Shown here piece by piece: positions 46,996-62,902 of a stretch of DNA of 64,000 bases (positions are counted from its first letter, which is position 1; each line of letters opens with the position of its first letter). The position numbers and the translations under genes were made by a program. The notes under the pieces were generated by a model. It searched no databases. It saw only the letters and a list, made by a program, of their open reading frames with translations, and was not told the origin of the DNA. The stretch comes from Bacteroidaceae bacterium (GTDB lineage: Bacteria > Bacteroidota > Bacteroidia > Bacteroidales > Bacteroidaceae). The stretch spans positions 62,001 through 126,000 of the forward strand of contig JAFSPM010000045.1 in the NCBI GenBank assembly GCA_017442855.1. The letters are read 5' to 3'.

Positions 46996-48117
46996 TCAGT
47001 CATACGGGATGATGACACGTTGGTAGGAGAGGGCGCCCAAGATGCCCCAGCCCTCCTTCACATTGCTGACTATCTGTACGGGTTCGGAGAAAGCATCGGA
47101 TGTGGATACACGATACAGCTCTACCGACTTGAGGAAACGATAGAACTCAGGCGAGATGGCCTGTAGTTCCACCATTACCTGTGGCGCTACCCAAACACTG
47201 TTGGGTCGCATGTCGCCCATTTCATAACTCGTTACTTGCAGTATCGGTTTAGGACTGTCAACGACAAATGAATAGTCATTACCTTTCATCAGCGTATCGT
47301 CAAATATATTGCTGAAGAAAGCAGGCCAACCGCCAAAGTTGGTGTTCAAGCGGTTATCCATGAACAGTTCGTCATCGGAGAAGAAAATGTCCTGCATAAG
47401 GTAACGGGTTCGGTCTTCAGTGTTCTCCAATCGGTACCACCCGTCAATCAATATGTCAGGCCTGTCAGAAATCACGCCCCTTACACGCAGCCTGTAATAC
47501 TGATTCTCGGCAGTGTCTGTAATACGACAGGTAATCCGCATAATGGTATCGGTGTCGTATGTAAGGTTATTCATCACCTTATAGGGGTTGTCGCCCAACA
47601 CTTCATGCTTCACCACCTCTATCTTTGGCTGAGCAGGCACTGTGGTTTCTGCCGTTGCTTCCTGCATGCCCACTTCTGTACCCTGGCTCCAATCCATCTT
47701 GTGATAGCTTGCCTTTACCACAATATGGTCATTCACCTGAGGAATATAGTTACAAACAAAGCCCAGACTGTCGGCTGCCAACGTCAAGTTGTAGGTCTGA
47801 CTGCCATTGACCACCGCCTGCACCTCGGCATCCAGAATGGCTGTTTTCTTGTAATAAGCCATGCTCTGGTAGTCGGTACTCACATCATCATCGAAGAATA
47901 CCGAACTCTGGTAGTCGTTATAGGTCAGCGTGGGTGTCTTTCCCACCTGAAAGGCGTGTGACACCAACACCTTGAAAGGCTTGCCAACCACCGCCACCGC
48001 ATTGATGATGATATCGTTCTCCGTCTCTTGCTCCACACCTTTGAAGTCCAACTCTTTCTCGCACGCACTGCAGAGAAACGCCAACGTCAGTAATAGGTAT
48101 AATAATTTGCTGTTCAT
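46996..48117 (-). CDS. DUF4249 lipoprotein, partner of the upstream TonB receptor
   Basis: 373 residues from the Met at 48117 (the longer frame overlaps the receptor). The signal peptide ends in a lipobox, FLCSACEKELDF. The domain shows the DUF4249 pattern: an early beta domain (INAVAVVGKPFKVLVSHAF), ETTVPAQPKIEV, then the conserved FFSDDELFMDNRLNTNFGGW and a C-terminal FYRFLKSVELYR with GWGILGA. It is a surface or periplasmic lipoprotein associated with TonB-dependent receptors; SusD-like ligand capture is my inference. It starts 5 bp after the receptor gene and is paralogous to 53937-55064. Confidence 0.85.
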   Translation of the reverse strand: MNSKLLYLLLTLAFLCSACEKELDFKGVEQETENDIIINAVAVVGKPFKVLVSHAFQVGKTPTLTYNDYQSSVFFDDDVSTDYQSMAYYKKTAILDAEVQAVVNGSQTYNLTLAADSLGFVCNYIPQVNDHIVVKASYHKMDWSQGTEVGMQEATAETTVPAQPKIEVVKHEVLGDNPYKVMNNLTYDTDTIMRITCRITDTAENQYYRLRVRGVISDRPDILIDGWYRLENTEDRTRYLMQDIFFSDDELFMDNRLNTNFGGWPAFFSNIFDDTLMKGNDYSFVVDSPKPILQVTSYEMGDMRPNSVWVAPQVMVELQAISPEFYRFLKSVELYRVSTSDAFSEPVQIVSNVKEGWGILGALSYQRVIIPYD

Positions 48118-48122
48118 AGTCG

Positions 48123-50594
48123 TTATAGTTTGAGGGTGAGGGTAAATGAAGGCATAATGGGGAACATACACACACCCTTGAGGGCTTTTCGGTTATTGGT
48201 ATAACCCCAATAGACAGACGAGATGTTTTGCTGATTATACAGGTTATAGATGCCCACCTCACAAATCATCTCACCTATGCCGATATTGCCGTGATGAATC
48301 AGACTGACATCCAGTCGGTGTAGGGCAGGGAATACAAAACTGTTTCGCTGTCGGTAGGTATCCATTCGCACCGCACGGTCAAAGTCAGTATCTACATAAT
48401 ATTCATCAGTCTCATACCTGTAGGCAGGGTTCTGACTTAGGTCTTTGCTCCACCCTGTCGATGAAGTAGGCGTATAGTTGTTAAATTCGTCCAGTTGTCC
48501 GAAAGCCACTGTCGTTGTGGCGATAGAAGCTCTTCGTCCGCTTTGGTAGGTCCATGCGGCTGAGAAGTCCCAGTTCTTGCTCAAACGCTGTGTGATGCTG
48601 ATGTTGAAGTTATGCCTGCGATCACCATTGGAATAAAATTCACGTCCGCCGTTCAGCTCCATGCCTAGGTGGTCGAAGGTACGCAGCGACTTGCTCCAGG
48701 TGTAGCTTATCTGTCCCGTTGTCTTGCCAAAGGTCTTCTCCACCAGCATCTCTACGCCGTAGGCCCTGCCTCGTCCTTGCACAATCAGTTCGTTCATCCC
48801 CTTGGCACCTATGTAGGAAGTACCCTCGGCATAGTCCACCACATTGTCCAACCATTTGTAGTAGCCCTCCACTGAGAACTGTATGCCATTGTCGGTGTCG
48901 TAGTTGAAACCCAGCGACAGCTGGTCAGAGGTGCCCAGTTTCATGTCTTTGTTGTAAGGAATCCATATCTCAGAGGGAGTGACTAAGCTACCGCTGGTAA
49001 GTAGGAACAAGCCTTGTGACATACGCGCATACGACAGCTTCAGTGAGGCATTCTTGGCCAACAGCCAACGCAAGGAGGCACGTGGCTCCAACGAAGAGCG
49101 GAACTTACCGTCGGATTGGTATCCCTGCCAACGCAGACCCACATTAGCCCTGAGCCAGGGGGTGATGGTCCAATCGTCGTCTATGTAAACTGCCATTGAG
49201 CTCAACGACCTGCCTTCCACCATGTCGTTGTGCACATTTCTCTCCGTAATTTTATAGCGATCCTCACCCAATCCGATGTTCCAAAGTGTCTGCTCGTCTA
49301 ACGATGCTTTTTTCCAGTAATTGTAGAAAGCATCGATACCAGAGGAAAGATTGATGGCATTTCCCTGCAACCCTGCATGTGCCTCATGCTTGCCTTGTAG
49401 GGTGTAGCCCAGGTCAATCTTCGCATTCCAGTCATTTACTTTTGTCTTGAAATGGGTACCGTTATCCACCTTTGTCGTCGAAAACACCAGCCCATCGTTC
49501 TCGTCCATTTCCCATTTGTCAGGGTCTCTGTCATAGATGGTAAGCTTCACCTCGTTTTGGGTGTAAGTGTCGTAGTTCAGCTCATAGTCGTAGCCGCTGT
49601 AGGCTGCAGCTGCCTCCAGCTTCAGCTGTGGTGAGAACCGATGACTGTATTGCAATCCTCCCAGCAGGTTGTGCCAGCGGTTGGTGGTGACACTCTCACT
49701 GCTCACGTTGGTCCAGCTGGTTTTATCGCTCCACGAGGGCAACCCCGAAACAGGATCTCTGATTACTTCACCACTGGCATCAGTTTTCCATATCGTATTT
49801 ACAAAGTGCTGACTCGTCTCAGTAGGCGTGGCATTATTCACGTCACGTCCATAGTAGAACATGGCCGTCAGCTTGTCCTTGTCCGTAAAGCGATGGGTAA
49901 TCTTGGCATTGATGTCGAAATACTTCATGTGGTTGTAGGCATTCATCGCTCCAGGGTTGTCATACACCACCTCTTCCAACAACGGGCGTATGATGGCATT
50001 GAAGTAGGAGGCACGCGCCGCCACATTGAATGAGGTGCGTCCTTTCCAGATAGGACCCTCCAGCTGGATCCTGGATGCCAGCATACCTGCCGCTATCGTA
50101 GCGTGGTATTTATTCATGTCGCCCTCTCGCAGACTCATGTCGATGATGCCTGACAAGCGACTGCCAAAACGGGTGGGGAAGGCCCCTTTGTACAGCACCA
50201 CATCATCCAGCATGTCGGCATTGACGGCAGAGGTAAAACCCTGCAGATGCTGTGGGTTGTACAGGTTGATGCCATCAATCAGAAAGAGGTTCTGGTCATA
50301 GTCACCGCCTCGTACGAAGATGCCCGCACGGCCTTCGCCGCTCGACTGCACACCAGGAAGGCGTTGCAGTGATTTGAGTACATCGATCTCACCCAACAGC
50401 ATGGGCAGTTTCTTAATCTGGTCAATGGAAAGCGAGTTGGCACTCATCTGAGAACTGAGGGCATTGAAGTTATGGCGCTTCGCTGTTACGGTCACCTCCT
50501 CCAAATCCAGATCCTTTGATACGTCCTGTGCCTTTGCTGTCCATCCTACAGCCAACAAAGCACAAGCACACCATATTCTACCAAACCTAATCAT
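48123..50594 (-). CDS. TonB-dependent receptor lacking the N-terminal regulatory domain
   Basis: 823 residues from the Met at 50594; the longer frame (50621) starts at the -7 box and is excluded. A signal peptide (about 23 residues) leads directly into the plug: LEEVTVTAKR, LPGVQSSGEGRAGIFVRGG, LFLIDGINLYNPQH. The beta barrel runs to the terminal aromatic/hydrophobic strand (FTLTLKL). The carboxypeptidase-like beta domain found in its paralogue 51313-53931 is absent, as the mature N-terminus is only about 15 residues long before the plug. It imports an unidentified ligand using TonB energy, probably with the DUF4249 protein. It is not a SusC with a SusD partner. Confidence 0.92.
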   Translation of the reverse strand: MIRFGRIWCACALLAVGWTAKAQDVSKDLDLEEVTVTAKRHNFNALSSQMSANSLSIDQIKKLPMLLGEIDVLKSLQRLPGVQSSGEGRAGIFVRGGDYDQNLFLIDGINLYNPQHLQGFTSAVNADMLDDVVLYKGAFPTRFGSRLSGIIDMSLREGDMNKYHATIAAGMLASRIQLEGPIWKGRTSFNVAARASYFNAIIRPLLEEVVYDNPGAMNAYNHMKYFDINAKITHRFTDKDKLTAMFYYGRDVNNATPTETSQHFVNTIWKTDASGEVIRDPVSGLPSWSDKTSWTNVSSESVTTNRWHNLLGGLQYSHRFSPQLKLEAAAAYSGYDYELNYDTYTQNEVKLTIYDRDPDKWEMDENDGLVFSTTKVDNGTHFKTKVNDWNAKIDLGYTLQGKHEAHAGLQGNAINLSSGIDAFYNYWKKASLDEQTLWNIGLGEDRYKITERNVHNDMVEGRSLSSMAVYIDDDWTITPWLRANVGLRWQGYQSDGKFRSSLEPRASLRWLLAKNASLKLSYARMSQGLFLLTSGSLVTPSEIWIPYNKDMKLGTSDQLSLGFNYDTDNGIQFSVEGYYKWLDNVVDYAEGTSYIGAKGMNELIVQGRGRAYGVEMLVEKTFGKTTGQISYTWSKSLRTFDHLGMELNGGREFYSNGDRRHNFNISITQRLSKNWDFSAAWTYQSGRRASIATTTVAFGQLDEFNNYTPTSSTGWSKDLSQNPAYRYETDEYYVDTDFDRAVRMDTYRQRNSFVFPALHRLDVSLIHHGNIGIGEMICEVGIYNLYNQQNISSVYWGYTNNRKALKGVCMFPIMPSFTLTLKL

Positions 50595-50618: not shown

Positions 50619-50626
50619 CAAATATA
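50619..50626 (-). promoter_or_regulatory. -7 box of the minus-strand receptor unit
   Basis: Minus strand TATATTTG followed by CGCC. Two TTTGTAAAC copies lie upstream, the near one ending 32 positions from this box. Confidence 0.7.
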
Positions 50627-50657
50627 ATTAGTTTAGCTCACCTAAACAAGTATTATA

Positions 50658-50687
50658 GTTTACAAAATAGCCTTGTTAGTTTACAAA
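50658..50687 (-). promoter_or_regulatory. operator pair of the minus-strand receptor promoter
   Basis: TTTGTAAAC (minus strand) at 50658-50666 and again at 50679-50687, 21 bp apart. The near copy starts 32 positions from the -7 box end at 50626, just upstream of the expected -33 region, the place of an activator site. Confidence 0.65.
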
Positions 50688-50688
50688 G

Positions 50689-50732
50689 CTTTATTATTAA
50701 ATGGCGCAACGCAGAAACATTGCACGGCATTA
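50689..50732. repeat. 44-bp block shared with 57519-57562
   Basis: 42 of 44 bases are identical to 57519-57562 (differences at 50705 and 50721). The block contains GCAACGCAGAAACAT and GCACGGCATTA. In both places it lies immediately beyond the TTTGTAAAC pair, on the side away from the -7 box. It is not explained by any gene. Confidence 0.75.
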
Positions 50733-50758
50733 ACCATTTTTAACTTTCCGTAAAAGGC

Positions 50759-50775
50759 TTGTAAACTATTTACAA
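50759..50775. promoter_or_regulatory. palindromic operator copy in the divergent control region
   Basis: TTGTAAA-CTA-TTTACAA is a perfect inverted repeat with a 3-bp centre, made of two facing copies of the same TTTGTAAAC-like motif. It lies between the two promoters and upstream of the plus-strand direct pair. Confidence 0.6.
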
Positions 50776-50787
50776 ACCGCCCTCACA

Positions 50788-50808
50788 TTTGTAAACTCAT
50801 TTGTAAAC
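50788..50808 (+). promoter_or_regulatory. operator pair of the plus-strand receptor promoter
   Basis: TTTGTAAAC at 50788-50796 and 50800-50808, 12 bp apart. The near copy ends 32 positions before the -7 box start at 50840, the same geometry as at the two other promoters. Confidence 0.65.
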
Positions 50809-50815
50809 TCCAAAA

Positions 50816-50847
50816 TTTGCAGGACCCTGAAGAGTCGAATATCTTTG
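50816..50847 (+). promoter_or_regulatory. promoter of the plus-strand receptor unit
   Basis: -33 TTTG at 50816-50819, a 20-bp spacer, -7 TATCTTTG at 50840-50847. The ATG at 50882 is downstream. Confidence 0.7.
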
Positions 50848-50881
50848 GGGTAAAATGTCATATCTATTATTTTATACTACT

Positions 50882-51301
50882 ATGAAAACACTTAGAGTTT
50901 ATGGTACCCTGCTTCTTTTGGCTGCATTGCCCCTTATCCTCAGTGCTTGTAAAGATAAGGATGAAGTAGATTATGAAAATGAACCCATAGGTTGGATACG
51001 GCTTTCTACCGAACAATTTGAACTCGGTCCTGATGCAGCTACGCTGCAAGTAACGGTGGAGGTAAACAATGTTCCTTTACGTGCAGAAATCTATCGAGAT
51101 TATGTTTCTTGGATTACTTCTTGCAAGTTGGTGGAACAAGAGCAAGGTGGAAGTAGCAGAAAAGAAACCTATCTTATCACTGTAGAAGCCAATGATACCT
51201 ATGCCAGGCGCCTAGGTACTGTGTTTTTCTATGCGGGCAGTTATGCTGTAAATCCTGTTAGTAAAGGGGTTGTTATCATTCAGGAGCCTATGAATCATTA
51301 A
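50882..51301 (+). CDS. small lipoprotein, BACON-like single domain
   Basis: 139 residues from the ATG at 50882. The signal peptide ends in the lipobox LILSACKD. The rest is one beta-rich domain: IRLSTEQFELGPDAATLQVTV, WITSCKLVEQ, TYLITVEANDTYARRLGTVFFYAG, in the style of BACON-type immunoglobulin-like domains (strand, W-x-T, closing GTVFFY), but the match is only by pattern. It leads the operon with the second TonB receptor, starting 11 bp before it. Presumably cell-surface; role unknown. Confidence 0.7.
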   Translation: MKTLRVYGTLLLLAALPLILSACKDKDEVDYENEPIGWIRLSTEQFELGPDAATLQVTVEVNNVPLRAEIYRDYVSWITSCKLVEQEQGGSSRKETYLITVEANDTYARRLGTVFFYAGSYAVNPVSKGVVIIQEPMNH

Positions 51302-51312
51302 TCTTCATCGTT

Positions 51313-53931
51313 ATGAAAAGGTCTATCTATAACCATTGTTTATTAGTGGGGCTGCTGTTGCTATGTTTGCCACTTGGTGCCCAGAATGTGGTGCTGAGCG
51401 GACAGGTGACAGATGCAGAAACAGGAGAGCCTCTGGTGGGTGTGACCGTCTATCATACCCAGCGACGGACGGGCACCACCACGAATGCTTCAGGGTATTA
51501 TGTCATCACATTGCCCAGTAACCGACAGTTGGAACTGGTGTTCAGCTACGTAGGCTATGCATCAGTGACGCAACAGATCACCCTTAGGAACGACCAGAGG
51601 TTGAACATCCAACTCAAGCAGGATGCACAGAACCTGAGTGAGGTGCAGGTATATGGCACCCGTCATAACTTTGGCGCATTGAACTCGCAGACCAGTGCCA
51701 TTGCCCTGTCAGCCGAACAGATACGTCGCATGCCCATGGTCTATGGTGAAACCGATGTACTGAAATCATTGCAACACCTGCCTGGTGTGCAAAGCAGTGG
51801 TGAGGGGCGTGCCGGCATCCATGTGCGTGGTGGCGACTACGACCAGAACCTCTTCATGCTTGATGGCATTACGCTTTACAACCCACAGCATCTGCAGGGG
51901 TTTACCTCTGCCATCAATGCCGATGTGATGGATGATGTGGTGCTCTATAAGGGCGCTTTCCCTGCCCGCTATGGCAGTCGTTTGTCGAGCGTTGTCGATA
52001 TCAGTCTGTTGGATGGTGACATGAACCGCTACCGTGCTTCTGTAACTGCGGGTATGTTAGCCTCGCGTGTACAGGCAGAGGGCCCCATTTGGAAAGACCG
52101 CACCTCTTTTAATATAGCAGCCCGTATGTCTTATTTCAACCTCATAGTAAAGCCGCTGCTCGAAGAGGTGGCGTATGACAATCCTGGGCAGATGAACGAC
52201 TTTGCCCACATGAAATACTTCGATGTCAATGCCAAGTTGGTGCACCGCTTTACTGACAAAGACAAGCTGTCGCTGGTGTTCTACATGGGGCATGATGAGA
52301 ACAACGCTACACCTAATGAAACCCAGCAGCATTTCCAATACCAAAAAAGAGGAAACAACGATCTTACCATCTTCGGTTTGATAGACAATACCTTGACCAG
52401 TCAGACATTGAACAAATGGAACAACCTGTTAGGAGGACTTACCTATACCCACCAGTTTAGCGGATCGCTGCAATGGAACACCATGCTTTCCTACAGTGGA
52501 TATGACTATGAACTGAAGCACCTGTACAGCAGCAGTGACAGGGTCAGCCTGGGCATCAACTCAAACGAGCGAATGACTGCTGAACTTTATTCTCTTGAAA
52601 ATAAACAAGGAGGAACGGTTTATACTTCGAAAGTACACGATGTGCAATTAAAGAGCGACTTGGTATATACGTGGAAAGACGTGCATGAGGTGCATGGTGG
52701 CATACAGGCCGGCATCATTAACCTGACGCCCTCGATAGCGGTGAACAACGATGCTTACACCAAAAAGACAGACAGTGAGAGTACTGCCCTTAACAAAGGA
52801 TTGGGTGATGTGCGCTATCAGGAAACACAGAAAAATGCCAACAATCAAGTAGGTGGAGTGCAAGACCTGAAAGTGTTTGGCGCCTATGTGGAGGATGATT
52901 GGGAAATCACCCCTAAGTTGAAAGCTAACTTGGGACTCCGACTACAGGGTTATGTAAGCGATACGAAGACGCAGGTAGCCATAGAGCCTCGTGCTTCCGT
53001 TCGTCTGTTATTGGGCAAGCGCACATCAATAAAAGCCTCTTATGCCCGTATGTCGCAAGGCATGAGTCTGCTGAGCAGTGGAAGTCTGCTTACGCCCACC
53101 GAGATATGGGTACCCATTACCGGCAACATGAAGATTGGCACTTCCGACCAGGTTACACTTGCTTTTAACCATGATACGAAGAGTGGCATTCAGTTTTCGA
53201 TTGAGGGCTACTACAAATGGTTGGACAATGTGATGGACTATCAGGAAGGAGCCTCGTTCCAGACGGGCAACAACTGGGAGGATAAAATAGTGCAGGGACG
53301 TGGCCGTGCCTTTGGTGTGGAGGTGATGGCACAGAAAACCGTTGGTACTACAACGGGTATGGTGAGCTACACATGGAGCAAATCACTGCGTACCTTCGAT
53401 CGTCCGGGTATGATACTCAATGAAGGACGTGAGTTCTATGCCGTGGGCGACCGTCGCCATAACTTCAGCATCAACATTACCCAGCGACTGAGCAAGAACT
53501 GGGATTTCTCCGCTGCCTGGACTTACCAGACAGGCCGACGTGCCTCTATGGCCAGCATGACCATAGCTGGAAATGTGCTGGATGAATACAACAATTATTA
53601 TCCAATAGACGGAAGTGGAAACAATCCTGCCTATAAGAACCGTCTTGAAGCAAATATGGGAACCACTTACATTGACCATATCGTACGTACCGACACCTAT
53701 GGACAACGCAATGCATACCAAATGCCGGCTGTGCACCGCCTCGACATCACGCTGAGTCATCATGGCAGCATCGGCATTGGTGAAATGATTTGCGATATCG
53801 GCATCTATAACCTCTATAATCGTGCCAATGTGTCGTCAGTATATTGGGGATACAAAGACAACCGTCGCGCCTTGATGGGTGTGTGTCTGTTCCCCTTCAT
53901 GCCATCCATCAATCTCACTCTTAAACTCTGA
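51313..53931 (+). CDS. TonB-dependent receptor with carboxypeptidase-like regulatory domain
   Basis: 872 residues. A signal peptide (about 23 residues) precedes a carboxypeptidase-regulatory-like beta domain (VVLSGQVTDAETGEPLVGV, residues about 25-112), then the plug (LPGVQSSGEGRAGIHVRGG; FMLDGITLYNPQH) and a 22-strand-type barrel ending in LTLKL. It closely resembles the divergent receptor at 48123-50594 over plug and barrel (for example NNATPNETQQHF versus NNATPTETSQHF). It is followed 5 bp later by its own DUF4249 gene. The ligand is unknown. Confidence 0.93.
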   Translation: MKRSIYNHCLLVGLLLLCLPLGAQNVVLSGQVTDAETGEPLVGVTVYHTQRRTGTTTNASGYYVITLPSNRQLELVFSYVGYASVTQQITLRNDQRLNIQLKQDAQNLSEVQVYGTRHNFGALNSQTSAIALSAEQIRRMPMVYGETDVLKSLQHLPGVQSSGEGRAGIHVRGGDYDQNLFMLDGITLYNPQHLQGFTSAINADVMDDVVLYKGAFPARYGSRLSSVVDISLLDGDMNRYRASVTAGMLASRVQAEGPIWKDRTSFNIAARMSYFNLIVKPLLEEVAYDNPGQMNDFAHMKYFDVNAKLVHRFTDKDKLSLVFYMGHDENNATPNETQQHFQYQKRGNNDLTIFGLIDNTLTSQTLNKWNNLLGGLTYTHQFSGSLQWNTMLSYSGYDYELKHLYSSSDRVSLGINSNERMTAELYSLENKQGGTVYTSKVHDVQLKSDLVYTWKDVHEVHGGIQAGIINLTPSIAVNNDAYTKKTDSESTALNKGLGDVRYQETQKNANNQVGGVQDLKVFGAYVEDDWEITPKLKANLGLRLQGYVSDTKTQVAIEPRASVRLLLGKRTSIKASYARMSQGMSLLSSGSLLTPTEIWVPITGNMKIGTSDQVTLAFNHDTKSGIQFSIEGYYKWLDNVMDYQEGASFQTGNNWEDKIVQGRGRAFGVEVMAQKTVGTTTGMVSYTWSKSLRTFDRPGMILNEGREFYAVGDRRHNFSINITQRLSKNWDFSAAWTYQTGRRASMASMTIAGNVLDEYNNYYPIDGSGNNPAYKNRLEANMGTTYIDHIVRTDTYGQRNAYQMPAVHRLDITLSHHGSIGIGEMICDIGIYNLYNRANVSSVYWGYKDNRRALMGVCLFPFMPSINLTLKL

Positions 53932-53936
53932 AAGCT

Positions 53937-55064
53937 ATGAAGAACAGGATATTTACAATTCTACTTGCACTGGCTGTCGCTTGTACATCTTGCGAGCATG
54001 TCATCGATTATGAAGGTACCCAGGAAGACTTGTCCATAGGTTCTACGGTCATCAATGCCGTTGCCATTGCCGGTATGCCCTTTATCGTCTATCTGATTCA
54101 TGCCGAACGGGCAGATCTGGCTCAGGCGCGACGTTACGTGGATTTTGATACGGCCATGTATCATTATAATGAAACATATACTGGTGACTACAGTAGTAAT
54201 GAATATTTGCAACGCACCCATATACCGTCGGCACAGGTGGAGGTACAGGTGAACGGACAGACGACTTATCCCATGACGTTCGATGGCAAGAACTATAACT
54301 ACAAGACCAGCTATACCCCTCAAGAGGGTGATCATGTAGTAGTAAATGCCACCGTCGATGGGGTAACGCTGACTGCGGAAACCACTGTTCCCGCCAAGCC
54401 GCAGATAGAGGTAGTAAGTAATGAGGAGTTGGACGGCAACCCCTATAAATATATGAATGGCCTCGCCTTCGAGACCGACAGCATTATGCGCCTTACACTA
54501 CGCATTAATGATGTGGGGGGTGATGGCTATTACCGCCTACGCGTACGTAGTGTAGGTGTGAGTTATTTCCATAGTGGCATTTTGGACCAAAATAGAACTT
54601 CCACAACAGTTTGGACCATTACTCCCTATTACAGAGCACAGGATGTATTCTTTTCTGATGACGAGATGTTTATGGATAGCCGTCTCACCAGTGGTTTTGG
54701 AGGCTGGTCGGCATTCTTTTCAAATGTATTCAGCAGTGAGCAGATACAGGGTGGAGGCTATACCTTTGTCGTTGATAGTCCGAAGGTGCCTTATACCCCA
54801 TCTGTTTATGACTGGATGAAAGAGGAGGGTATAATAGATGATTCCCAGTTGAAGAATTTCACCTATATACCACCTCAGATACAGGTGGATTTGGAAGCCA
54901 TTACCGAGGATTATTACCGCTTCCTTAAGTCAGCTGAGTTGTATCGCCTCACCACTAGCGATATCAACAGCGAAACCATCTACACGCATGGCAATGCCGT
55001 AAACGGATGGGGGATTTTGGGAGCGATGAGCTATGACAGGCATATCATCTACTTCGAAAATTAG
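53937..55064 (+). CDS. DUF4249 lipoprotein, partner of the second TonB receptor
   Basis: 375 residues. The signal peptide ends in a lipobox-like AVACTSCEHVIDYEG. DUF4249 features parallel its paralogue at 46996-48117: INAVAIAGMPFIVYLIHAE, AETTVPAKPQIEV, FFSDDEMFMDSRLTSGFGGW, DYYRFLKSAELYRL and NGWGILGAM. It closes the plus-strand unit and converges with the regulator gene, with only 13 bp between stop codons and no obvious terminator. Confidence 0.85.
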   Translation: MKNRIFTILLALAVACTSCEHVIDYEGTQEDLSIGSTVINAVAIAGMPFIVYLIHAERADLAQARRYVDFDTAMYHYNETYTGDYSSNEYLQRTHIPSAQVEVQVNGQTTYPMTFDGKNYNYKTSYTPQEGDHVVVNATVDGVTLTAETTVPAKPQIEVVSNEELDGNPYKYMNGLAFETDSIMRLTLRINDVGGDGYYRLRVRSVGVSYFHSGILDQNRTSTTVWTITPYYRAQDVFFSDDEMFMDSRLTSGFGGWSAFFSNVFSSEQIQGGGYTFVVDSPKVPYTPSVYDWMKEEGIIDDSQLKNFTYIPPQIQVDLEAITEDYYRFLKSAELYRLTTSDINSETIYTHGNAVNGWGILGAMSYDRHIIYFEN

Positions 55065-55077
55065 TCATTCATACAAA

Positions 55078-56823
55078 CTATAACGACAGTATGATGCTGT
55101 CCCAATCAGTAGGTGCTCCATCCCGACCCGTCACTTTCTTCAAGAGACGGCGACGGATGAGAGACACCGTGGACTTGTCGCGCAACACCAAGGTAGCAAT
55201 GCTGCTGGGGGGGAGTTCCATCTTTAGCAATAGGCATACCTGATATTCCAACGGGTTCATGGTGCCCAACTGACTGAGGTGCTGACGAAAGTCGGGATAA
55301 ACCTCATCCACTAACTTCTCTATCTCCTTCACCTCTTTTGCTTTTATATGATTTCCTTGGTTTACCATCTGTTGCAGGTGCTTCATAACGTCAGAATCCC
55401 TGATGACTGAGTCTGCCTGATTCTTCTCACCTCGTTTGATTTCGGCCACTAAGTTGGCGTTCTCCAGTTGCTCCTTCTGCCTTTCCAGTCGCTCCACCAA
55501 CTCATGGTTCTCTTGATTGACTTCTTCTAATTGTTGCTGTAAATGGATGATCTCTTCCTTGTTGGCTTGGATAAATGCCTCGCTCTGGCGATATTTCTCT
55601 TCTTGCAGCTGTTGCAAGCGCTCCTTGTTGTGCTGGTGGCGCATGCGTTTTCGTCGGCTGTATTGGATGTAAATAATCAGTAACAACAGGATGACACTCA
55701 CCACAAAGGCGATGCGCTGTAAAAGTTGTTGGTGCCGTTCCAGCTGTTTCTGTAGGCGTATATTCTCTTTCTCACGTAACTGGTAGTTGTACATGGCGTT
55801 CATACGGCTCACGCTTTCAGTGGCATCAGCACGGTAGATGCTGTCGCTGCATGCCTTGTACAGCTCGTAATAGTAGAGATAGTCGTCAGATAGATGCTTG
55901 TGGGCAGCTATGGTGGCTAGCCCATTGTAGGCATCCTGCCTTACAGGAGCTGCATCGGCATGCATCATCAGTTTGTAGTATGTCTGGGCTTCATCATATC
56001 TGCCTTCGTTCAGCAGGATATTGGCATACACATCGTAGGTGCTGAACTTGTCGGCTTCGCCCACCTGCTGCATGGCTTGGTCGATGAAACGATGCGCCTC
56101 TTCCTGTTTGCCCAACTGGTTGTACAGTCCTGCCAACTGTGAGGCGATAAGTCCCTGCATCTCCTCGTCTTCGTATTGTTGCGCTAACTGCTCGGCTTGG
56201 TGCAGATAATACAAAGCACTGTCGGGCTGCTGCAAGGTGCGATGTGTGAAAGCCAGGTCGCGTAAATCGAGGATAATGCCTAAGGTGTCATTAGAAAGTG
56301 CATCCAAACGGTAGGCTTCGCCATACATCTCCAAAGCCTCTGGGTAGAGCGACTGATAATAGTAAATCTCTCCCATCTGGGCATACAGAACGGAACTCAC
56401 CCATTGACTATTGTTTTGCCGTGTAGCATCCAGTCCTTTCTGGAAATAAGCCAATGCCAAGGGAGCGTCGTTGAGGTCACGATACACTCGCCCTGCATAG
56501 TAATAAGCTTCTCCTAAGTAATCGGGGTCACCACCTTGTTCGTAGTATTGCACCACTGGCAGAATCAAACTATCGGTGGTGTGGGGGATATAGGCCTTGT
56601 CGGCTGCCTTGATGCTGAGCAGGCGATGCAGCATCTGTGTAGCTTTGGGCGCTTGGTTCATATCCTCCTCCATAGCCGATAACAATGTAATCGCTGTAGT
56701 TGGGTCGGCACTTGCCAAGCTGTCCGCCAACAGCAACTGTGCAGGATAGTCTGTGCGTTGCTGACAGCCTGCCAGTCCCAGCATCATCCATAGTACTATG
56801 AGCCACCCCTTTCTCATCTTCAT
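55078..56823 (-). CDS. membrane-spanning TPR/HTH transcriptional regulator
   Basis: 581 residues. The N-terminus is a signal sequence ending in a lipobox-like LGLAGCQQ. Residues about 25-350 form TPR helices (ALAYFQKGLDATRQ; YPEALEMYGEAYRL), expected in the periplasm. One membrane helix lies near residues 368-390 (IAFVVSVILLLLIIYIQY), then a positively charged stop and a long coiled coil (about 395-475). The C-terminal 70 residues form a LuxR-like helix-turn-helix (MNPLEYQVCLLLKMELPPSSIATLV, then KSTVSLIRRRLLKKV). It probably senses a periplasmic signal and acts directly on DNA. It overlaps the upstream lipoprotein gene by four bases and is the obvious candidate for the TTTGTAAAC sites. Confidence 0.8.
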   Translation of the reverse strand: MKMRKGWLIVLWMMLGLAGCQQRTDYPAQLLLADSLASADPTTAITLLSAMEEDMNQAPKATQMLHRLLSIKAADKAYIPHTTDSLILPVVQYYEQGGDPDYLGEAYYYAGRVYRDLNDAPLALAYFQKGLDATRQNNSQWVSSVLYAQMGEIYYYQSLYPEALEMYGEAYRLDALSNDTLGIILDLRDLAFTHRTLQQPDSALYYLHQAEQLAQQYEDEEMQGLIASQLAGLYNQLGKQEEAHRFIDQAMQQVGEADKFSTYDVYANILLNEGRYDEAQTYYKLMMHADAAPVRQDAYNGLATIAAHKHLSDDYLYYYELYKACSDSIYRADATESVSRMNAMYNYQLREKENIRLQKQLERHQQLLQRIAFVVSVILLLLIIYIQYSRRKRMRHQHNKERLQQLQEEKYRQSEAFIQANKEEIIHLQQQLEEVNQENHELVERLERQKEQLENANLVAEIKRGEKNQADSVIRDSDVMKHLQQMVNQGNHIKAKEVKEIEKLVDEVYPDFRQHLSQLGTMNPLEYQVCLLLKMELPPSSIATLVLRDKSTVSLIRRRLLKKVTGRDGAPTDWDSIILSL

Positions 56824-57437
56824 TCAGATTTGATATACTTCAAGGAACTAAATGGACGAGTCCAAGATTTATAATAGCTACAATGAGGTTGCTCAGGATA
56901 ACGATAGTACATCCGGACTTCCACATCAGTACATGACCACCATATACTCTTTGTAAAAGTAAACTTGTCACCAGGTTTGTAATAAGAATGGGAAAAAACG
57001 CATTTATACCCATCATAATAGGTATAAGTCAGTTCGCCATAGCCTTGCCGTTTGAATATCATATAAACTTTCGCATCAAAGAACAATGATTTGTCTTCCT
57101 CGCTGATCTCTTCTCCCCAGTAGATTTCCGCAGTATACATTTCTGTTTCTTCGTCGTAATCAGTGACAATGATATCGCCCTTCTGCAATTCAGATATTGC
57201 TGAATACCTGATTTCCATGTCACCATTGCCCAGAATATCACGATGGTCGTGACCTTTCTCTCCATTGAATATGCCAGACCTGCGACTAATCTTCGTGCTA
57301 CGCAAGGCATCTGCATTCAGCAATGCCAATGACTGTTGTTGCTCTAAATCCTTCAGAAGGCTGTCCGTTTCTTTCTCGCAAGATACGAACAGAACACTTG
57401 TGAGAGTCAGTATAGTAAAAAGTTTACTTCTTTTCAT
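56820..57437 (-). CDS. lipoprotein of unknown function, first gene of the regulator operon
   Basis: 205 residues from the Met at 57437 (the longer frame would start inside the promoter). The signal peptide ends in the lipobox VLFVSCEKE. The mature part has a helical start (LLKDLEQQQSLALLNADALR), then a beta-rich domain with many aromatic residues (MYTAEIYWGEEI, GELTYTYYDGYKCVFSHSYY, SIWWSCTDVEVRMYYRY). No family recognised. Its stop codon overlaps the start of the regulator, so the two are coupled, and a partner or sensor role for the regulator is plausible. Confidence 0.75.
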   Translation of the reverse strand: MKRSKLFTILTLTSVLFVSCEKETDSLLKDLEQQQSLALLNADALRSTKISRRSGIFNGEKGHDHRDILGNGDMEIRYSAISELQKGDIIVTDYDEETEMYTAEIYWGEEISEEDKSLFFDAKVYMIFKRQGYGELTYTYYDGYKCVFSHSYYKPGDKFTFTKSIWWSCTDVEVRMYYRYPEQPHCSYYKSWTRPFSSLKYIKSE

Positions 57438-57458
57438 AGTATCAATTATTCTAACACG

Positions 57459-57466
57459 CAAATATA
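57459..57466 (-). promoter_or_regulatory. -7 box of the lipoprotein/regulator operon
   Basis: Minus strand TATATTTG followed by CGTG, 22 nt upstream of the chosen ATG. The surrounding region is a near copy of that at 50619-50732. Confidence 0.7.
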
Positions 57467-57497
57467 GTTAGTTTGACTCAGCAAAACAACTCTTGGA

Positions 57498-57517
57498 GTT
57501 TACAAATAGTTTACAAA
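57498..57517 (-). promoter_or_regulatory. operator pair of the regulator operon promoter
   Basis: TTTGTAAAC (minus strand) at 57498-57506 and 57509-57517, 11 bp apart. The near copy starts 32 positions from the -7 box end, as at 50658. Compared with that site, the gap between copies is exactly 10 bp shorter, one helical turn. Confidence 0.65.
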
Positions 57518-57518
57518 T

Positions 57519-57562
57519 CTTTATTATTAAATGGTGCAACGCAGAAACATGGCACGGCATTA
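57519..57562. repeat. 44-bp block shared with 50689-50732
   Basis: Second copy of the conserved block, 42 of 44 bases identical. It lies between the regulator promoter and the msrA promoter. Confidence 0.75.
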
Positions 57563-57585: not shown

Positions 57586-57593
57586 TATCTTTG
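57586..57593 (+). promoter_or_regulatory. -7 box of the msrA/exporter operon
   Basis: TATCTTTG followed by CAGC, 30 nt upstream of the msrA ATG. It excludes the reading-frame start at 57591. Confidence 0.6.
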
Positions 57594-57623
57594 CAGCAGA
57601 AAACTCATAATACATATTTATAT

Positions 57624-58154
57624 ATGGCAACAATGGTTTTGAAAGAGATATACCTGGCAGGAGGCTGCTTCTGGGGAACAGAGCATTTCTTCAAGCAGAT
57701 AGATGGAGTGGTGGAGACCGAGGTGGGCTTCGCCAACGGATATACTGAAAACCCTACCTACAAGGAGGTATATACCGATACGACCGGCTATGCCGAGACG
57801 GTGAAGATAGTATATAACCCCGAGGTGGTGGGACTGCGTTTCCTCCTTCAGATGTTCTTCAAGGCCATCGACCCAACCAGTTTGAACAAACAAGGCCACG
57901 ACGAAGGTACTCGTTACCGCACGGGCATCTATTATGTAGATAAAGAAGATGCGTTTATCGTGGAGGAGGTGTATCAGGCTGAGCAGGCCAACTATGAGGA
58001 ATCCTTGGTGGTGGAGAAGATGCCACTACAAAATTTCTATACGGCTGAGGAATACCACCAGGACTATCTTGATAAGAACCCCGATGGCTATTGCCACCTG
58101 CCTGTTTCCCTGTTTAAATTCGCAAAAGAGACCAAGCCTGTGAAAGACTTGTAA
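57624..58154 (+). CDS. msrA: peptide-methionine (S)-S-oxide reductase MsrA
   Basis: 176 residues from the ATG at 57624. The active-site Cys is in LAGGCFWGTEHFF, with the conserved GYTGNPTY-like segment as GYTENPTY and the ligand region QGHDEGTRYRTGIYY, then TAEEYHQDYLDKNP. It reduces methionine sulfoxide in proteins. No signal peptide. It is 14 bp upstream of the exporter adaptor with no terminator, so it leads the operon. Confidence 0.94.
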   Translation: MATMVLKEIYLAGGCFWGTEHFFKQIDGVVETEVGFANGYTENPTYKEVYTDTTGYAETVKIVYNPEVVGLRFLLQMFFKAIDPTSLNKQGHDEGTRYRTGIYYVDKEDAFIVEEVYQAEQANYEESLVVEKMPLQNFYTAEEYHQDYLDKNPDGYCHLPVSLFKFAKETKPVKDL

Positions 58155-58168
58155 ATAAAGTATCGCTT

Positions 58169-59035
58169 ATGAGTAATAACAACCCATTTTCAGAGGATAG
58201 TCGCCAACAAAAGCTCCAGTCGCTTGATCAAGTAGGGAGCCTGTTGAAGATTACTTCGGTGCCTTCCTATCTCGTAGCCCTCACAGTCTTGCTGTTGTTG
58301 GGAGCTTTCATCACCTGGGGTTTCTTGGGTACTGTGTCCGACAAGGCCTATTATAGTGGCGTAGTTTTCCCTATGCAGGGTACCAATGACGTTTCGTTGC
58401 CCAACAAGGGTATGATTCGCACGATGCTGGTTCATAGCGGTGATCATGTGGTGAAAGGACAGTCGGTAGCCCTGATTTCGATAGATGACAGTTATAGTAT
58501 TCTGACCAGTACGGTGGAGGGAACGGTCATCAGTACCAAGGTGGATAACGAGCCTTTCGAGGCTTTCGAACCTATTGTGAGTGTGGTTGATAACTATAAT
58601 CAGTTCACCCAACGACACATGCTGATAGCCTTTGCCAACAACCAAAACCAACGTCACCTGCGTGAAGGTATGGAGGCACAGGTTTGGCCTGAAAATGAGA
58701 AACGCGACGAGATAGGCTATGTACGTGGACGCATCGTCCGTATCGACCGCTACCCGGTGTCGGCCGATGTGGTTCGTCAGGCACTAAAGAGCAACGAGTT
58801 GGTACAGCGCATACTTGAGTCGGGTGAATTGATGTATCAGGTGAACATTGAACTGCTAACTTCAAAGGAAGATGAAACACGCTATGACTGGTCGTTTGGC
58901 GAGCCGGTAGATGTAGATATGAATGTGGGCACCTATTGCTCGGTGCTAAGTGAGACAAGGCGTCGCAGTATGTTTGTGTATTTGTTTGAATCAGTCAGGA
59001 CTCGCTTCCGCTCCATTAAACTTGCCACCGAATGA
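58169..59035 (+). CDS. NHLP-type HlyD-like membrane fusion protein
   Basis: 288 residues. A cytoplasmic N-terminus, one membrane helix near residues 34-55 (YLVALTVLLLLGAFITWGFLG), then a lipoyl-like half motif (GTNDVSLPNKGMIRTMLVHSGDHVVKGQSVALI) and a beta-barrel region; there is no long coiled-coil hairpin between the lipoyl halves. The short form fits the secretion protein of NHLP-type peptide exporters. It overlaps the first ABC gene by four bases (ATGA). Confidence 0.75.
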   Translation: MSNNNPFSEDSRQQKLQSLDQVGSLLKITSVPSYLVALTVLLLLGAFITWGFLGTVSDKAYYSGVVFPMQGTNDVSLPNKGMIRTMLVHSGDHVVKGQSVALISIDDSYSILTSTVEGTVISTKVDNEPFEAFEPIVSVVDNYNQFTQRHMLIAFANNQNQRHLREGMEAQVWPENEKRDEIGYVRGRIVRIDRYPVSADVVRQALKSNELVQRILESGELMYQVNIELLTSKEDETRYDWSFGEPVDVDMNVGTYCSVLSETRRRSMFVYLFESVRTRFRSIKLATE

Positions 59036-60792
59036 ACGCTGAGCGACAAGCAAATAGTAGATTACATAAGGGGCGGTCATCGACCATCAACCTGATAAGC
59101 CGCTTCAATCGGGGCTGCAAGGGTTTCTTTTTGGTTACCTTCCTGTTGCTGATAGGGGATATGGCTTCCTATTTGTTGCCACCTTTCTTCCAGCAGGTCT
59201 ATACAGATAACATCATTACCCACAAGAACCCTGAATGGTTCACGCCCTTGATGATTATCTACGCCCTGCTGTTCGTGCTGGAACTTACCATGTGGCTACT
59301 ACTGAACCCCCTTCGTAGGCGTGAGTTCGCCAAGATGGGAATTCACTCTTCTTCCCGATACGTTAGGCATCTGCTAGAACTGCCTATGAGTGCCATTGAT
59401 CGCTTCACGGCAGGAGAGCTGGTGGCCCGCTACTCCAGCATCAAGAACATAGGAATGGCCATGGATCATTTTTCCTATGCACTGGTACTGGTCATCCGCC
59501 CGCTCCTGTGTGCCTGGTTGCTGGTGATGTATAGCTGGAAACTGGGTATGGTAGTGGTGCTCTCTATGGTGTTTCTTGTGGTTGTGATGCGATTCACCGC
59601 CAGTACCATTAAGAAAAAGGCTAAGGGTTCAGAAGAAACAGATGCTCGCCTGCAAGGCGTTACCATGGCGGGTATCAAGAGCATGGAAACTATCAAGTCT
59701 ATGGGTGACGAACGCCTTTTCTTTGCTAAGTGGGAAGAGGCATACGTGCGTGCACTCAACGCTCGTGTAGGTACCACTATGATGACCATGAGCATTGGCT
59801 CCCTGCCCCTGCTGGTTCTAAACTTATGCAATGCCCTCATACTGTGTCTGGGTGCGTGGTATATCCTGCAAGGCGAGCTTACCCCAGGTATGTTGTTGGC
59901 CTCTCAGGCACTGGCTACCAGCATCATCTTCCCCATCAACTCGGTGGTTAATTCTACACAGGAGATTTACCGTTCCCATGCTGCTATGGAACGCTTGGAA
60001 GAAGTGGAGGAGGCTAGTCAGGGTCACTCTCTGACACTCTCTAGTGAGGATGAGTTGCCTGATGAACCCAAACTTCTAGGAGAGGTGGAGCTGCGTAACG
60101 TTACTTTCGGTTACGACCGCAACAACCCGCCTGTGCTCAAGAATTTCTCACTGAAGATAAGTCCGGGACAGCAGGTGGCTTTCGTCGGGTTCTCTGGCTG
60201 TGGTAAGAGCACCATAGCCAAGCTTATTTCCGGCCTTTATGAGCCGTGGGAGGGAGAGGTACTCCTGGATGGTGTGCCGGTGGGAAAGATTGACCGTTCT
60301 GTCAAGAACAACTCCCTTTCTGTGGTAAACCAGGATATCACCCTCTTCGAGGGACCTATTGCTGACAATATTAAGATGTGGGATGAATCTATTGAGGATT
60401 TCTCTATGGTGATGGCCGCTCACGATGCTCAAATACACGAAGATATAGTCGGACGTCCTGGCGCCTATCAGTCGCTACTTGCAGAAAACGGAAAGAATTT
60501 CAGTGGAGGGCAACGTCAACGTATTGAGATTGCTACGGCCTTAGCCAAAGACCCCTCTATCCTTATCATGGATGAGGGCACATCGGCCTTGGATCCCAAG
60601 ACTGAGGAACTGGTGATGGGACATATCCGTCAGTTGGGCATCACTACGATTATGATAGCCCATAGGCTTACTACCATCCGTGATTGTGATATTATATATG
60701 TATTAGAACGTGGTCAGCTGATACAGCAGGGTTCGCATGAGGAACTGATGCAACAAGAAGGCCTGTACAGCGAACTGATTAAATATGCCTGA
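59032..60792 (+). CDS. NHLP-type ABC exporter, permease-ATPase, no C39 peptidase domain
   Basis: 586 residues. Six membrane helices (residues about 25-310) are followed by an ATPase domain: Walker A FVGFSGCGKSTIAKL, Q-loop VVNQDITLFEGPI, signature NFSGGQRQRIEIATAL, Walker B ILIMDEGTSALDP, H-loop IMIAHRLTT. The membrane domain resembles the peptidase/permease/ATPase subunit of NHLP peptide exporters, but the usual N-terminal C39 peptidase of about 130 residues is absent; only about 25 residues precede the first helix. The start overlaps the adaptor gene, so the lack of peptidase is not a start-site error. Confidence 0.85.
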   Translation: MNAERQANSRLHKGRSSTINLISRFNRGCKGFFLVTFLLLIGDMASYLLPPFFQQVYTDNIITHKNPEWFTPLMIIYALLFVLELTMWLLLNPLRRREFAKMGIHSSSRYVRHLLELPMSAIDRFTAGELVARYSSIKNIGMAMDHFSYALVLVIRPLLCAWLLVMYSWKLGMVVVLSMVFLVVVMRFTASTIKKKAKGSEETDARLQGVTMAGIKSMETIKSMGDERLFFAKWEEAYVRALNARVGTTMMTMSIGSLPLLVLNLCNALILCLGAWYILQGELTPGMLLASQALATSIIFPINSVVNSTQEIYRSHAAMERLEEVEEASQGHSLTLSSEDELPDEPKLLGEVELRNVTFGYDRNNPPVLKNFSLKISPGQQVAFVGFSGCGKSTIAKLISGLYEPWEGEVLLDGVPVGKIDRSVKNNSLSVVNQDITLFEGPIADNIKMWDESIEDFSMVMAAHDAQIHEDIVGRPGAYQSLLAENGKNFSGGQRQRIEIATALAKDPSILIMDEGTSALDPKTEELVMGHIRQLGITTIMIAHRLTTIRDCDIIYVLERGQLIQQGSHEELMQQEGLYSELIKYA

Positions 60793-62902
60793 TGATATGA
60801 ATAATCCTTTCTTCGAACAGCTGGTGCAACGAATTGAGGGCGACCGTCAGGCCCTGAATCAGATCTCTGACATCTTCCGTGGGATGATAGACCGTAGAAT
60901 GTGGGAGAAACTCACCCGCCAGCGGGAGATCCCTACTGATATCGACCAGCTGGAGGAGGTCTTCTACCGCCACCAGATATTCTTCCGCCAAGTGCAACTG
61001 GAAGGCCGTTGGTGGACACGTTGCTCGGGCAGGATCCTGGCATTTACTCAGGAAGGTGACCATCCTGTCATTCTCATGCCTCTCTTTGCCGACTATTCCT
61101 TTATCCTTCCCGGTTCTGGACGTCGCTGCTCTGCCAGAAAGGATGCGGCTCTTCTCAAGCCAGAGGCGTTCACACTCTGCTATCCGTTGCCCAGCGAGAA
61201 ACTTACGCTTTCTTCCTTCCTGTGGTACACGCTGAAGCAACTGAATATTTTCGATTATCTCTGTGCACTGTTGGCGTGCCTGGGCGTGGTAATACTAACC
61301 ATGGTGACCCCTTACATCTGCAAGCTGCTGTTCAACGAGGTGATTCCATCCGGTGAAGCTTCTCAGCTTACCCCTATTGCCGTACTGCTTTTTAGTGCTG
61401 CAGCTGGTCTTGTAACAGTACAATTGTCTCGAAATTATCTGGTCGTCAGGATGAAGGATAAGACGGAATATGCCATGCAGGCTCCACTGATGGCCCGACT
61501 ATTGATGCTGCCTACCACATTCTTCAAACAGTATGCTCCTGGAGATTTGTCAAACCGCGTACTGTCGGTGGTTAGGCTCTTCACCAAACTTACGGAGGAT
61601 ATGCTATCTACCATTCTCTCCTTGGTGTTCACAACGGTGATGTTTATACAGTTCTTTACCTATGGTGGACCGCTGCTGTGGACGGGCATCCTCATCATCG
61701 TCATTTACCTGCTGGCTATTTACAGCGTATATTATTTTAGAAAGAATGTACAGAATAGTGCCAACGCAAGCGGCTCCAAGCTTACGGGTGTCATCTATAA
61801 TCTGGTGTCTGGCGCCCAGAAAATCCGAACCAACGGAGCTGAGATTCGCGCTTTCCGTCATTGGGCAGTGGCCTACGAACCCTCTGAGCCCAATGGTAGC
61901 CGCTATCCAGCCATGTTCGTCATCGGCAACTCGCTGAGTTATAATTTCCGTTTGGTGCCACTACTGGTCACCATGATAGCTGCTTGGTATTATGGTTTGG
62001 GCTTGTCTGACTATATCGCTTATTGCAGCGTACTCACCTTTGCTGTCCGTGCGGTGGAAGACTTTGAACGAATTACCAAGGATGTAGCTATGTTGGGACC
62101 GGAACTCAAGCTCTGTACCCCTATCTTAGAAGCTGAGTCTGAGGCACAGTCTGGCGACACTTTGTTGCGTAGTGTCAGTGGCATGATTGACATTCGTAGT
62201 CTCAAGTTCCGCTATGCCGAGAATATGCCTTACATCTTTAATGGTCTTGACTTACACATTAATCCTGGTGACATCGTGGCCATCGTGGGCCCTTCGGGAT
62301 GTGGTAAAAGTACCCTCGTGCGTCTACTCCTGGGTTTCGAACGTCCAGAGAGTGGTTCCATCTTCTACGACGAGCACAACCTGGACGAAATCAATAAGCC
62401 CAGTTTGCGCCGCTACTGTGTGAGCATCTGCCTGCAAGATGGGCAGCTGGTGGAAGGCACCATCCGCGATAACATCCTCTTCGGTAATGATTGGTATAAT
62501 GACGACAAGGTATGGGAGGCTGCCCGTTTAGCTGCCTTAGATAAGGATATCCTAGGGATGCCGTTAGGTTTAGATACTCCTATTAACTCCGATGGACAAG
62601 GTGTTTCCGGAGGCCAGCGTCAACGTATATTGATGGCTCGCTCTTTCATACGTAAGCCCAAGATTCTTTTCCTCGATGAGGCTACTTCAGCGCTTGACAA
62701 TATCAGCCAGCACATAATCACCGAGAACCTGACTAAGATGGATTGTACCCGCATTACCATTGCCCATCGAATGAGTACCATCCGGCAGTGTAGCCGCATC
62801 ATTGTACTCAATAAGGGAAGTGTGGCTGAGGATGGCACCTATGATGAACTGATGGCAAAGGGTGGATTGTTTGCTGATATTATAAAACGACAGATGCTAT
62901 GA
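60785..62902 (+). CDS. NHLP-type ABC exporter, second permease-ATPase subunit
   Basis: 705 residues. The N-terminal 150 residues are a soluble domain with LEGRWWTRCSGRILAFTQEGD and VILMPLFADYSF, characteristic of the second subunit of NHLP exporters. Membrane helices span residues about 160-430. The ATPase has Walker A VGPSGCGKSTLVRL, Q-loop CLQDGQLVEGTI, signature VSGGQRQRILMARSF, Walker B ILFLDEATSALD and H-loop ITIAHRMSTI. It probably pairs with the preceding ABC protein as a heterodimer. It overlaps that gene by eight bases and the next by four. Confidence 0.85.
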   Translation: MPDDMNNPFFEQLVQRIEGDRQALNQISDIFRGMIDRRMWEKLTRQREIPTDIDQLEEVFYRHQIFFRQVQLEGRWWTRCSGRILAFTQEGDHPVILMPLFADYSFILPGSGRRCSARKDAALLKPEAFTLCYPLPSEKLTLSSFLWYTLKQLNIFDYLCALLACLGVVILTMVTPYICKLLFNEVIPSGEASQLTPIAVLLFSAAAGLVTVQLSRNYLVVRMKDKTEYAMQAPLMARLLMLPTTFFKQYAPGDLSNRVLSVVRLFTKLTEDMLSTILSLVFTTVMFIQFFTYGGPLLWTGILIIVIYLLAIYSVYYFRKNVQNSANASGSKLTGVIYNLVSGAQKIRTNGAEIRAFRHWAVAYEPSEPNGSRYPAMFVIGNSLSYNFRLVPLLVTMIAAWYYGLGLSDYIAYCSVLTFAVRAVEDFERITKDVAMLGPELKLCTPILEAESEAQSGDTLLRSVSGMIDIRSLKFRYAENMPYIFNGLDLHINPGDIVAIVGPSGCGKSTLVRLLLGFERPESGSIFYDEHNLDEINKPSLRRYCVSICLQDGQLVEGTIRDNILFGNDWYNDDKVWEAARLAALDKDILGMPLGLDTPINSDGQGVSGGQRQRILMARSFIRKPKILFLDEATSALDNISQHIITENLTKMDCTRITIAHRMSTIRQCSRIIVLNKGSVAEDGTYDELMAKGGLFADIIKRQML

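Follow-up and report, generated by a model that had tools for sequence, protein, structure and literature searches.

To our knowledge, few Bacteroides regulators have known operators. Hybrid two-component systems (HTCS) join a kinase to an AraC-type helix-turn-helix (HTH). Regulators of the NarL/FixJ/LuxR type and activators of the PhoB type use tandem sites one helical turn apart beside the -35 or -33 element, and PhoB-type and class II activators touch sigma. The promoter consensus is TAnnTTTG, accompanied by TTTG at -33. Here we describe a 64,000-nucleotide stretch of Bacteroidaceae DNA, called the window, on which all positions are counted; its source assembly holds 2.76 Mb in 49 contigs and is about 80% complete. 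Pairs of the half-site TTTGTAAAC precede three of its promoters, and are very probably the tandem operators of the protein encoded at 55078..56823, which would be a local, autoregulating, membrane-anchored LuxR-like activator. The sites, their geometry, their co-occurrence with the regulator, the family pattern and the covariation of helix and operator were computed.

SusR-like regulators are predicted to have direct-repeat operators, 67 or 77 bp apart, and the similarity of their motifs tracks that of the proteins (PMC3878776). As far as the excerpts of that paper go, they are like the window system in being sensor-regulators beside outer-membrane uptake genes with direct-repeat operators, but the window repeats are 11-12 bp apart (21 at one promoter) and keep a constant distance from the -7 box. 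The 67/77-bp spacing was not found: the window periods are 21, 12 and 11, and the family treated below peaks at 11 among periods 9-39. HTCS operators are direct repeats averaging 21 bp apart, with transport genes as targets (PMC3878776), and these two traits, in the same excerpts, recur in the window. Unlike an HTCS, the window regulator has no match to a kinase, receiver or AraC-type HTH; at an E-value of 0.001, Pfam gives only tetratricopeptide repeat (TPR) matches.

BT2172/BT2173 are a TonB-dependent transporter and its DUF4249 partner (PMC11003636). Both receptor operons of the window have this pairing; the available parts of that paper mention neither regulator nor operator. BT3442, a TPR protein of several domains, is encoded near MACPF genes and adjoins BT3441, a homologue of BVU_0276 (PDB 3d33) (PMC2954219). 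In the excerpts of that source it is described as a TPR protein, without a regulator role or an operator, whereas the window regulator would target TonB/DUF4249 operons. Residues 3-564 of the window regulator align with the profile of the BT3442 family, NF053779, at 84 bits, where the cut-off is 940. The regulator is a relative of that family and not a member, the common ground being TPR-containing Bacteroides proteins; its genome has 14 related matches to the profile, none (0/14) above the cut-off. No description of this operator family was found in the literature searched, which covered few subscription papers.

Proposed operator pairs at three promoters

Each promoter has two direct copies of TTTGTAAAC upstream of its -7 box, at the coordinates proposed in an earlier sequence-only reading of this DNA. 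On the minus strand, the box TATATTTG of the receptor-1 operon (50619..50626) is preceded by a near half-site at 50658..50666 and a far one at 50679..50687. The same box in front of the regulator operon (57459..57466, minus strand) has its near and far half-sites at 57498..57506 and 57509..57517. On the plus strand, far and near half-sites at 50788..50796 and 50800..50808 precede a -33 element TTTG (50816-50819) and the box TATCTTTG (50840..50847) of the operon of a lipoprotein and receptor 2. The near copy lies 32 positions from the TAnnTTTG box, with 31 bases between, at 3/3 promoters, just as had been noted. The repeat periods are 21, 12 and 11 bp at the promoters at 50619, 50840 and 57459. 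All six exact copies of TTTGTAAAC in the window belong to these promoters; shuffled windows hold 0.56 copies on average, and 0/100 shuffles reach six.

In the whole genome, single TTTGTAAAC sites are at background (45; the reversed pattern gives 37), and they were rejected as a genome-wide regulon. Direct pairs with a spacer of 0-15 bp number three in the whole assembly, with 0 control matches. The sequence-only reading had named random occurrence of the pair before unrelated promoters as an objection; within the assembly, these pairs are confined to the three promoters.

The 50619 and 57459 promoters arose by duplication and are homologous along about 125 bp, 44 of them upstream of the sites. 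They are therefore not independent, and their identical geometry is partly a matter of shared descent. A 10-bp insert sets the half-sites of the 50619 copy further apart than those of the 57459 copy, and the difference between 21 and 11 bp is due to this insertion (or to a deletion in the other copy) within the duplicated promoter. Thus the spacings and distances first reported are correct, and 21 and 11 do differ by one helical turn as a number, but that turn is the insert in copied DNA and the three promoters are not three independent cases of one geometry. The 44 bp upstream of both minus-strand promoters (CTTTATTATTAAATGGYGCAACGCAGAAACATKGCACGGCATTA; 50689-50732 and 57519-57562, nearly identical) are either duplicated promoter DNA or the site of a second factor.

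An imperfect inverted pair, CTTGTAAAC/ATTTACAAA, occupies 50758..50776. Its inner part at 50759-50775, TTGTAAACTATTTACAA, had been taken for a perfect palindrome; only the 7-bp arms (TTGTAAA/TTTACAA) are perfect, and the 3-bp centre is asymmetric. The forward half of the pair, CTTGTAAAC at 50758, lies at a distance of exactly 30 bp from the plus-strand promoter's far copy, on its upstream side, and extra half-site copies occur at an equal 30-bp step in two promoters of another genome of the genus (G023).

Co-occurrence of the proposed operator and regulator

Exact pairs are present in 3/99 genomes of the genus, three in G000, five in G023 and two in G057; the other genomes gave three reversed-pattern matches. 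A regulator at least 66% identical to that of the window occurs in 3/158 genus genomes, and these are the same three. A whole-regulator search at E<=1e-130 in 399 genomes of the family, with three candidates scored per listed genome, returned the own genome only. When the gap between site and box was left free from 17 to 46 (counts tallied by hand from the match listing), a gap of 31 was found in 11/16 matches of G000, G023 and G057. Two of these eleven sit at paralogous loci, in contigs C24 and C14; the remaining 5/16 comprise three far copies of those promoters and two strays. In the other genus genomes the gap of 31 is at background (5/86).

Judged by the starts of open reading frames, G023 and G057 have the layout of the window, with a lipoprotein and the regulator in one group and a lipoprotein, a TonB receptor and a DUF4249 protein in the other. 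Sites precede the regulator's own operon in all three genomes. The G023 locus (L091:421-10517) has two similar receptor/DUF4249/lipoprotein blocks, each with its own two tandem operators, divergently oriented and about 103 bp from each other.

A wider search of the 399 family genomes used the pattern TTTGTANAC twice, with the gap free over 27-36. It matched in 5/399 genomes, always as TTTGTAAAC at gap 31, and the control gave 0. The five are the own genome and two genome pairs from two other genera. At the four loci of the other genera the pair lies 3' of a gene for a protein of 337-377 amino acids, the C-terminal domain of which is 35-43% identical to that of the window regulator. Two of these proteins were scanned: neither has a TPR match, both have a hydrophobic stretch located 165 residues from the C-terminus, and the next gene is redoxin/thioredoxin-like in 2/2 of these loci (of 4). 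The DNA-binding domain and the operator are thus kept together where sensor and targets differ, which makes this the strongest single argument that the domain reads the operator.

Family-wide promoter layout

A scan blind to motif covered 298 intergenic TAnnTTTG boxes in regulator-bearing loci and counted exact 9-mer repeats, with offsets from 10 to 80 and periods from 9 to 39. The matches pile up at offset 30 with period 11 (15 matches), followed, at the same period, by offsets 31 (14), 32 (8) and 29 (5); apart from these four, none of the 2,201 cells is above 2. Most peak matches are TTTGTAAAC, but the peak includes the unrelated repeats AAACCGCACA, TTGCGTACT, AAGTGAAAT, TGTACACTA and AATTCAACA. 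One peak match (L089) is more than 1 kb from its regulator.

From this layout comes a rule: a repeat at offset 30-31 and period 11-12 within 350 bp after the regulator's stop codon. It is satisfied by 27/54 regulators, although in one of the 27 (L090_14314) the repeat is really the operator of a neighbouring regulator. For the same 54 regulators, 28 control offset pairs gave 0-6, except for the shoulders at 27-28 (9) and 33-34 (12). The rule was then applied unchanged to a new genus, where the search pointed to 145 places in 61 genomes. The test used 43 of these, namely 30 that the search returned and 13 of 14 further ones with E <1e-24, representing 42 distinct regulators. Repeats obeying the rule follow 15/42 of them, or 15/37 among the closer ones; 26 control pairs had a median of 1 and a maximum of 3. 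These results suggest a fixed layout, with different half-sites, common to a large family of membrane-anchored regulators that has been little studied.

The same results bear on the idea that the shared geometry is copied DNA only, that is, undiverged duplicated promoters in which the spacing has not been selected. It holds in part, for the duplicates at 50619 and 57459, and G023 has two similar receptor blocks. As a full account it is very hard to credit, since the flanks vary across genomes and genera while the near half-site and its 31-bp gap do not, and unrelated repeat sequences share the geometry both in the motif-blind scan and in the rule tests.

At four loci (L097, L099, L100 and L116) the regulator is followed by a small secreted DUF3244 protein, and the tandem repeat is in the DUF3244 promoter region. 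DUF3244 proteins make up 4/10 of the genes scanned after family regulators. The structure 3d33 mentioned above is presumably a DUF3244 protein.

Recognition helix and half-site

Paralogs of the window regulator differ in their half-sites, here assigned by eye. In G057, G023 and G138 a paralog with 55% identity has TTTGTACAC, and its predicted recognition helix begins with KTT/KTS instead of KST/KSS. An inverted pair of TTTGTACAC precedes the paralog itself in G057 and G023, and tandem copies stand before lipoprotein genes in G057 and G138. The paralogs in contigs C24 (own genome) and C14 (G057) retain TTTGTAAAC, and the one in contig C36 of G023 has TTTATAAAC/TTTCTAAAC. Inverted pairs (TTTGTAAACTGGTTTACA, TTTGTACACTAGTGTACA) are seen before the paralogous regulators' own genes at L043:10041, at L094:5059 and upstream of L092:6215. 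They end about 43-44 bp before the box and replace the tandem pair at 31.

Across the family, 37 regulators with an assigned operator were grouped according to how their predicted recognition helix begins. KST/KSS helices go with TTTGTAAACT in 8/10 cases, the exceptions being L095 and L107, and KES helices with TGCACACT in 7/8, the exception being L098. All three KTT/KTS regulators, whose operators were assigned by hand, have TTGTACACT. CGTAC accompanies KQ- helices in 6/6 cases, and CCGCACA is found in at least one half with KSA helices in 4/4.

When the rest of the domain is controlled for, operator distance correlates with the distance between whole recognition helices, as delimited in the structure model (partial r 0.39, p 0.001; 34 regulators after thinning). 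The correlation persists with automatically assigned operators only (0.32, p 0.001; n=26) and with stricter thinning (0.45, p 0.001; n=28). Five other helices gave no covariation signal, and the best nine-residue windows by simple correlation fell inside the model's recognition helix. In the new genus, 3/15 repeats belong to regulators of known helix classes (one KES, two KQG) and have the expected ATGCACACT and TTTGCGTACT; these three regulators may be orthologs of earlier ones. Other KES, KSA and KST regulators of that genus are without a repeat.

Linkage and covariation are correlative, and a different DNA-binding protein, global or encoded elsewhere, might bind the TTTGTAAAC pairs, with the regulator as a mere neighbour. 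We regard this as quite improbable. Among the genomes of the genus that were searched, the pairs are confined to those with a close regulator; an HTH homologue and the operator occur together in two other genera despite different targets; and the half-sites change with the regulator's own recognition helix.

The regulator and its probable mode of action

The window regulator has one strongly hydrophobic stretch, from residue 368, which by hydropathy would be a transmembrane segment between the sensor and the HTH, as in a membrane-anchored one-component regulator. A hydrophobic 19-mer 100-260 residues before the C-terminus is found by hydropathy in 52/54 family regulators. The structure model of the HTH has a predicted local distance difference test score of 93.9, and its top Foldseek structures, at weak E-values, are of the LuxR/NarL type (NarL, DosR, VpsT, GerE). 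The likeness to the NarL/FixJ/LuxR regulators would lie in the modelled HTH; unlike theirs, the window HTH would form the C-terminus of a TPR protein anchored in the membrane, and no receiver domain was found. Pfam matches to the C-terminal 120 residues name no HTH family at E-values up to 5, the filters dropping most matches above about 0.1, and sequence searches of the HTH against PDB, Pfam and NCBIfam gave no HTH family either, only a weak BT3442_fam match.

We infer binding, membrane topology, activation, positive feedback and a ligand, and picture the system as follows. The TPR sensor region is predicted to be periplasmic and would be joined by one transmembrane segment and a linker to a cytoplasmic, C-terminal LuxR/NarL-like HTH. 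Two DNA-binding domains would occupy the half-sites in head-to-tail order and on the same helical face, the half-sites being 11-12 bp apart (21 at one promoter). Since 7-8 bp separate the end of the near half-site from the -33 element downstream, and 31 bp separate it from the -7 box, the bound factor could touch RNA polymerase (sigma) without blocking it. Triggering of the sensor would most likely activate the two TonB-receptor/DUF4249 operons and the regulator's own operon, a local positive-feedback switch. Half-sites that differ with the recognition helix would insulate the many paralogs of a genome from each other.

In the 13/13 aligned TTTGTAAAC promoters, the TTG of the -33 element follows the 10-base half-site by 7 bp. 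It is at exactly that position in 14/34 aligned promoters and mostly not in other half-site groups; the family rows of this 34-promoter alignment include only boxes at least 76 bp from the stop codon. The fixed position upstream of -33, overlapping no core element, favours activation and hence positive feedback, and since sites precede the regulator's own operon, the feedback loop would close. The sequence-only reading had proposed a class II-like layout, of which the tandem sites at a fixed distance beside -33 are borne out and activation is favoured by their position; it had left the sign of the feedback open, and the same position speaks for the positive one.

The regulator could instead bind the pairs and repress, a negative autoregulation released by a TPR ligand. 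Autoregulatory sites are often repressive, and the own promoters of the paralogs in C24 (L043) and C14 (L094), with an inverted pair ending about 43-44 bp before the box, may be regulated differently. For the window promoters we nevertheless consider repression rather unlikely: the sites lie upstream of -33, overlap neither promoter element and keep a constant distance, which steric repressors do not need.

Several observations weigh against an activator acting through these pairs, or against the code proposed for its relatives. Only the position of the sites speaks for the sign of regulation. Two of the three promoters (50619 and 57459) are duplicates, the four loci of other genera are two pairs of similar loci, and one G057 promoter has TAATTTTA where a consensus box is expected. 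The Foldseek E-values for the HTH are weak (0.6 or more). Half of the regulators have no such repeat within 350 bp (27/54, and 27/42 in the new genus), and helix classes KES, KSA and KST are among them. L098 (KES) has TGTACACT, L107 (KST) has CCGCACA/CCGTCCA and L095 (KST) has TTTATAAAC, all at odds with the code. Nine operators in the covariation test are hand-assigned. The last helix also signals weakly (0.19, p 0.008; 0.14, p 0.031; 0.03, p 0.33), and a nine-residue helix window chosen by eye is not significant (partial 0.09, p 0.086; automatic operators only 0.06, p 0.20). Nevertheless, co-occurrence, the loci in other genera, the family geometry and the covariation support the proposal that the pairs are operators of both receptor operons and of the regulator's own.

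Genes of the locus

The receptor-1 operon (minus strand) encodes TonB-dependent receptor 1 (48123..50594; 823 amino acids from ATG, with Pfam TonB_dep_Rec_b-barrel and Plug matches) and an adjoining DUF4249 protein (46996..48171; Pfam). The plus-strand operon begins with a putative lipoprotein of 139 amino acids with a BACON match (50882..51301), followed by TonB-dependent receptor 2 with a CarboxypepD_reg domain (51313..53931; Pfam) and its own DUF4249 protein (53937..55064; Pfam). Neither receptor has a match, at a Pfam E-value of 0.001, to the STN signalling domain, a feature of Fec-type extracytoplasmic function sigma/anti-sigma systems.

The regulator (55078..56823, minus strand), with its TPR region, hydrophobic stretch and predicted C-terminal LuxR/NarL-like HTH (from Pfam, hydropathy, model and fold match), is preceded in its operon by a first gene for a putative lipoprotein of 205 amino acids (56820..57437, minus strand). 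This lipoprotein has a GEKG.D.RD motif and no Pfam match. Its family is divergent, the G-E-K-G-x-D motif being conserved among 13 aligned sequences, and it is a candidate partner of the regulator.

Beyond the regulator operon, the genes at 58169-62902 encode an HlyD-like protein and two ATP-binding cassette transporters related to NHLP bacteriocin exporters, with scores below the NCBIfam cut-offs. They are adjoined by msrA (57591-58154; Pfam) and followed by an open reading frame at 62899. These NHLP-type genes have no exact TTTGTAAAC site, and their membership of the system is not supported. Around the G057 and G023 regulators, inspection of the open reading frames by their first residues, with no profile search, revealed no exporter.

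Implications for the Bacteroidaceae

It is likely, though less firmly so than the assignment of the window pairs, that the Bacteroidaceae carry a large and largely undescribed family of membrane-anchored regulators with TPR or other sensors and one LuxR-like HTH. Their half-sites would lie 11 bp apart and end 30-31 bp before a -7 box, often that of the first gene after the regulator, with letters set by the recognition helix, a readable code that would insulate paralogs. If this is true, targets could be assigned to a regulator family present in many copies, including TonB/DUF4249 uptake systems, and operator and regulon would be predictable from protein sequence. Such regulators would also offer tunable, mutually insulated promoters for the genetics of gut commensals.

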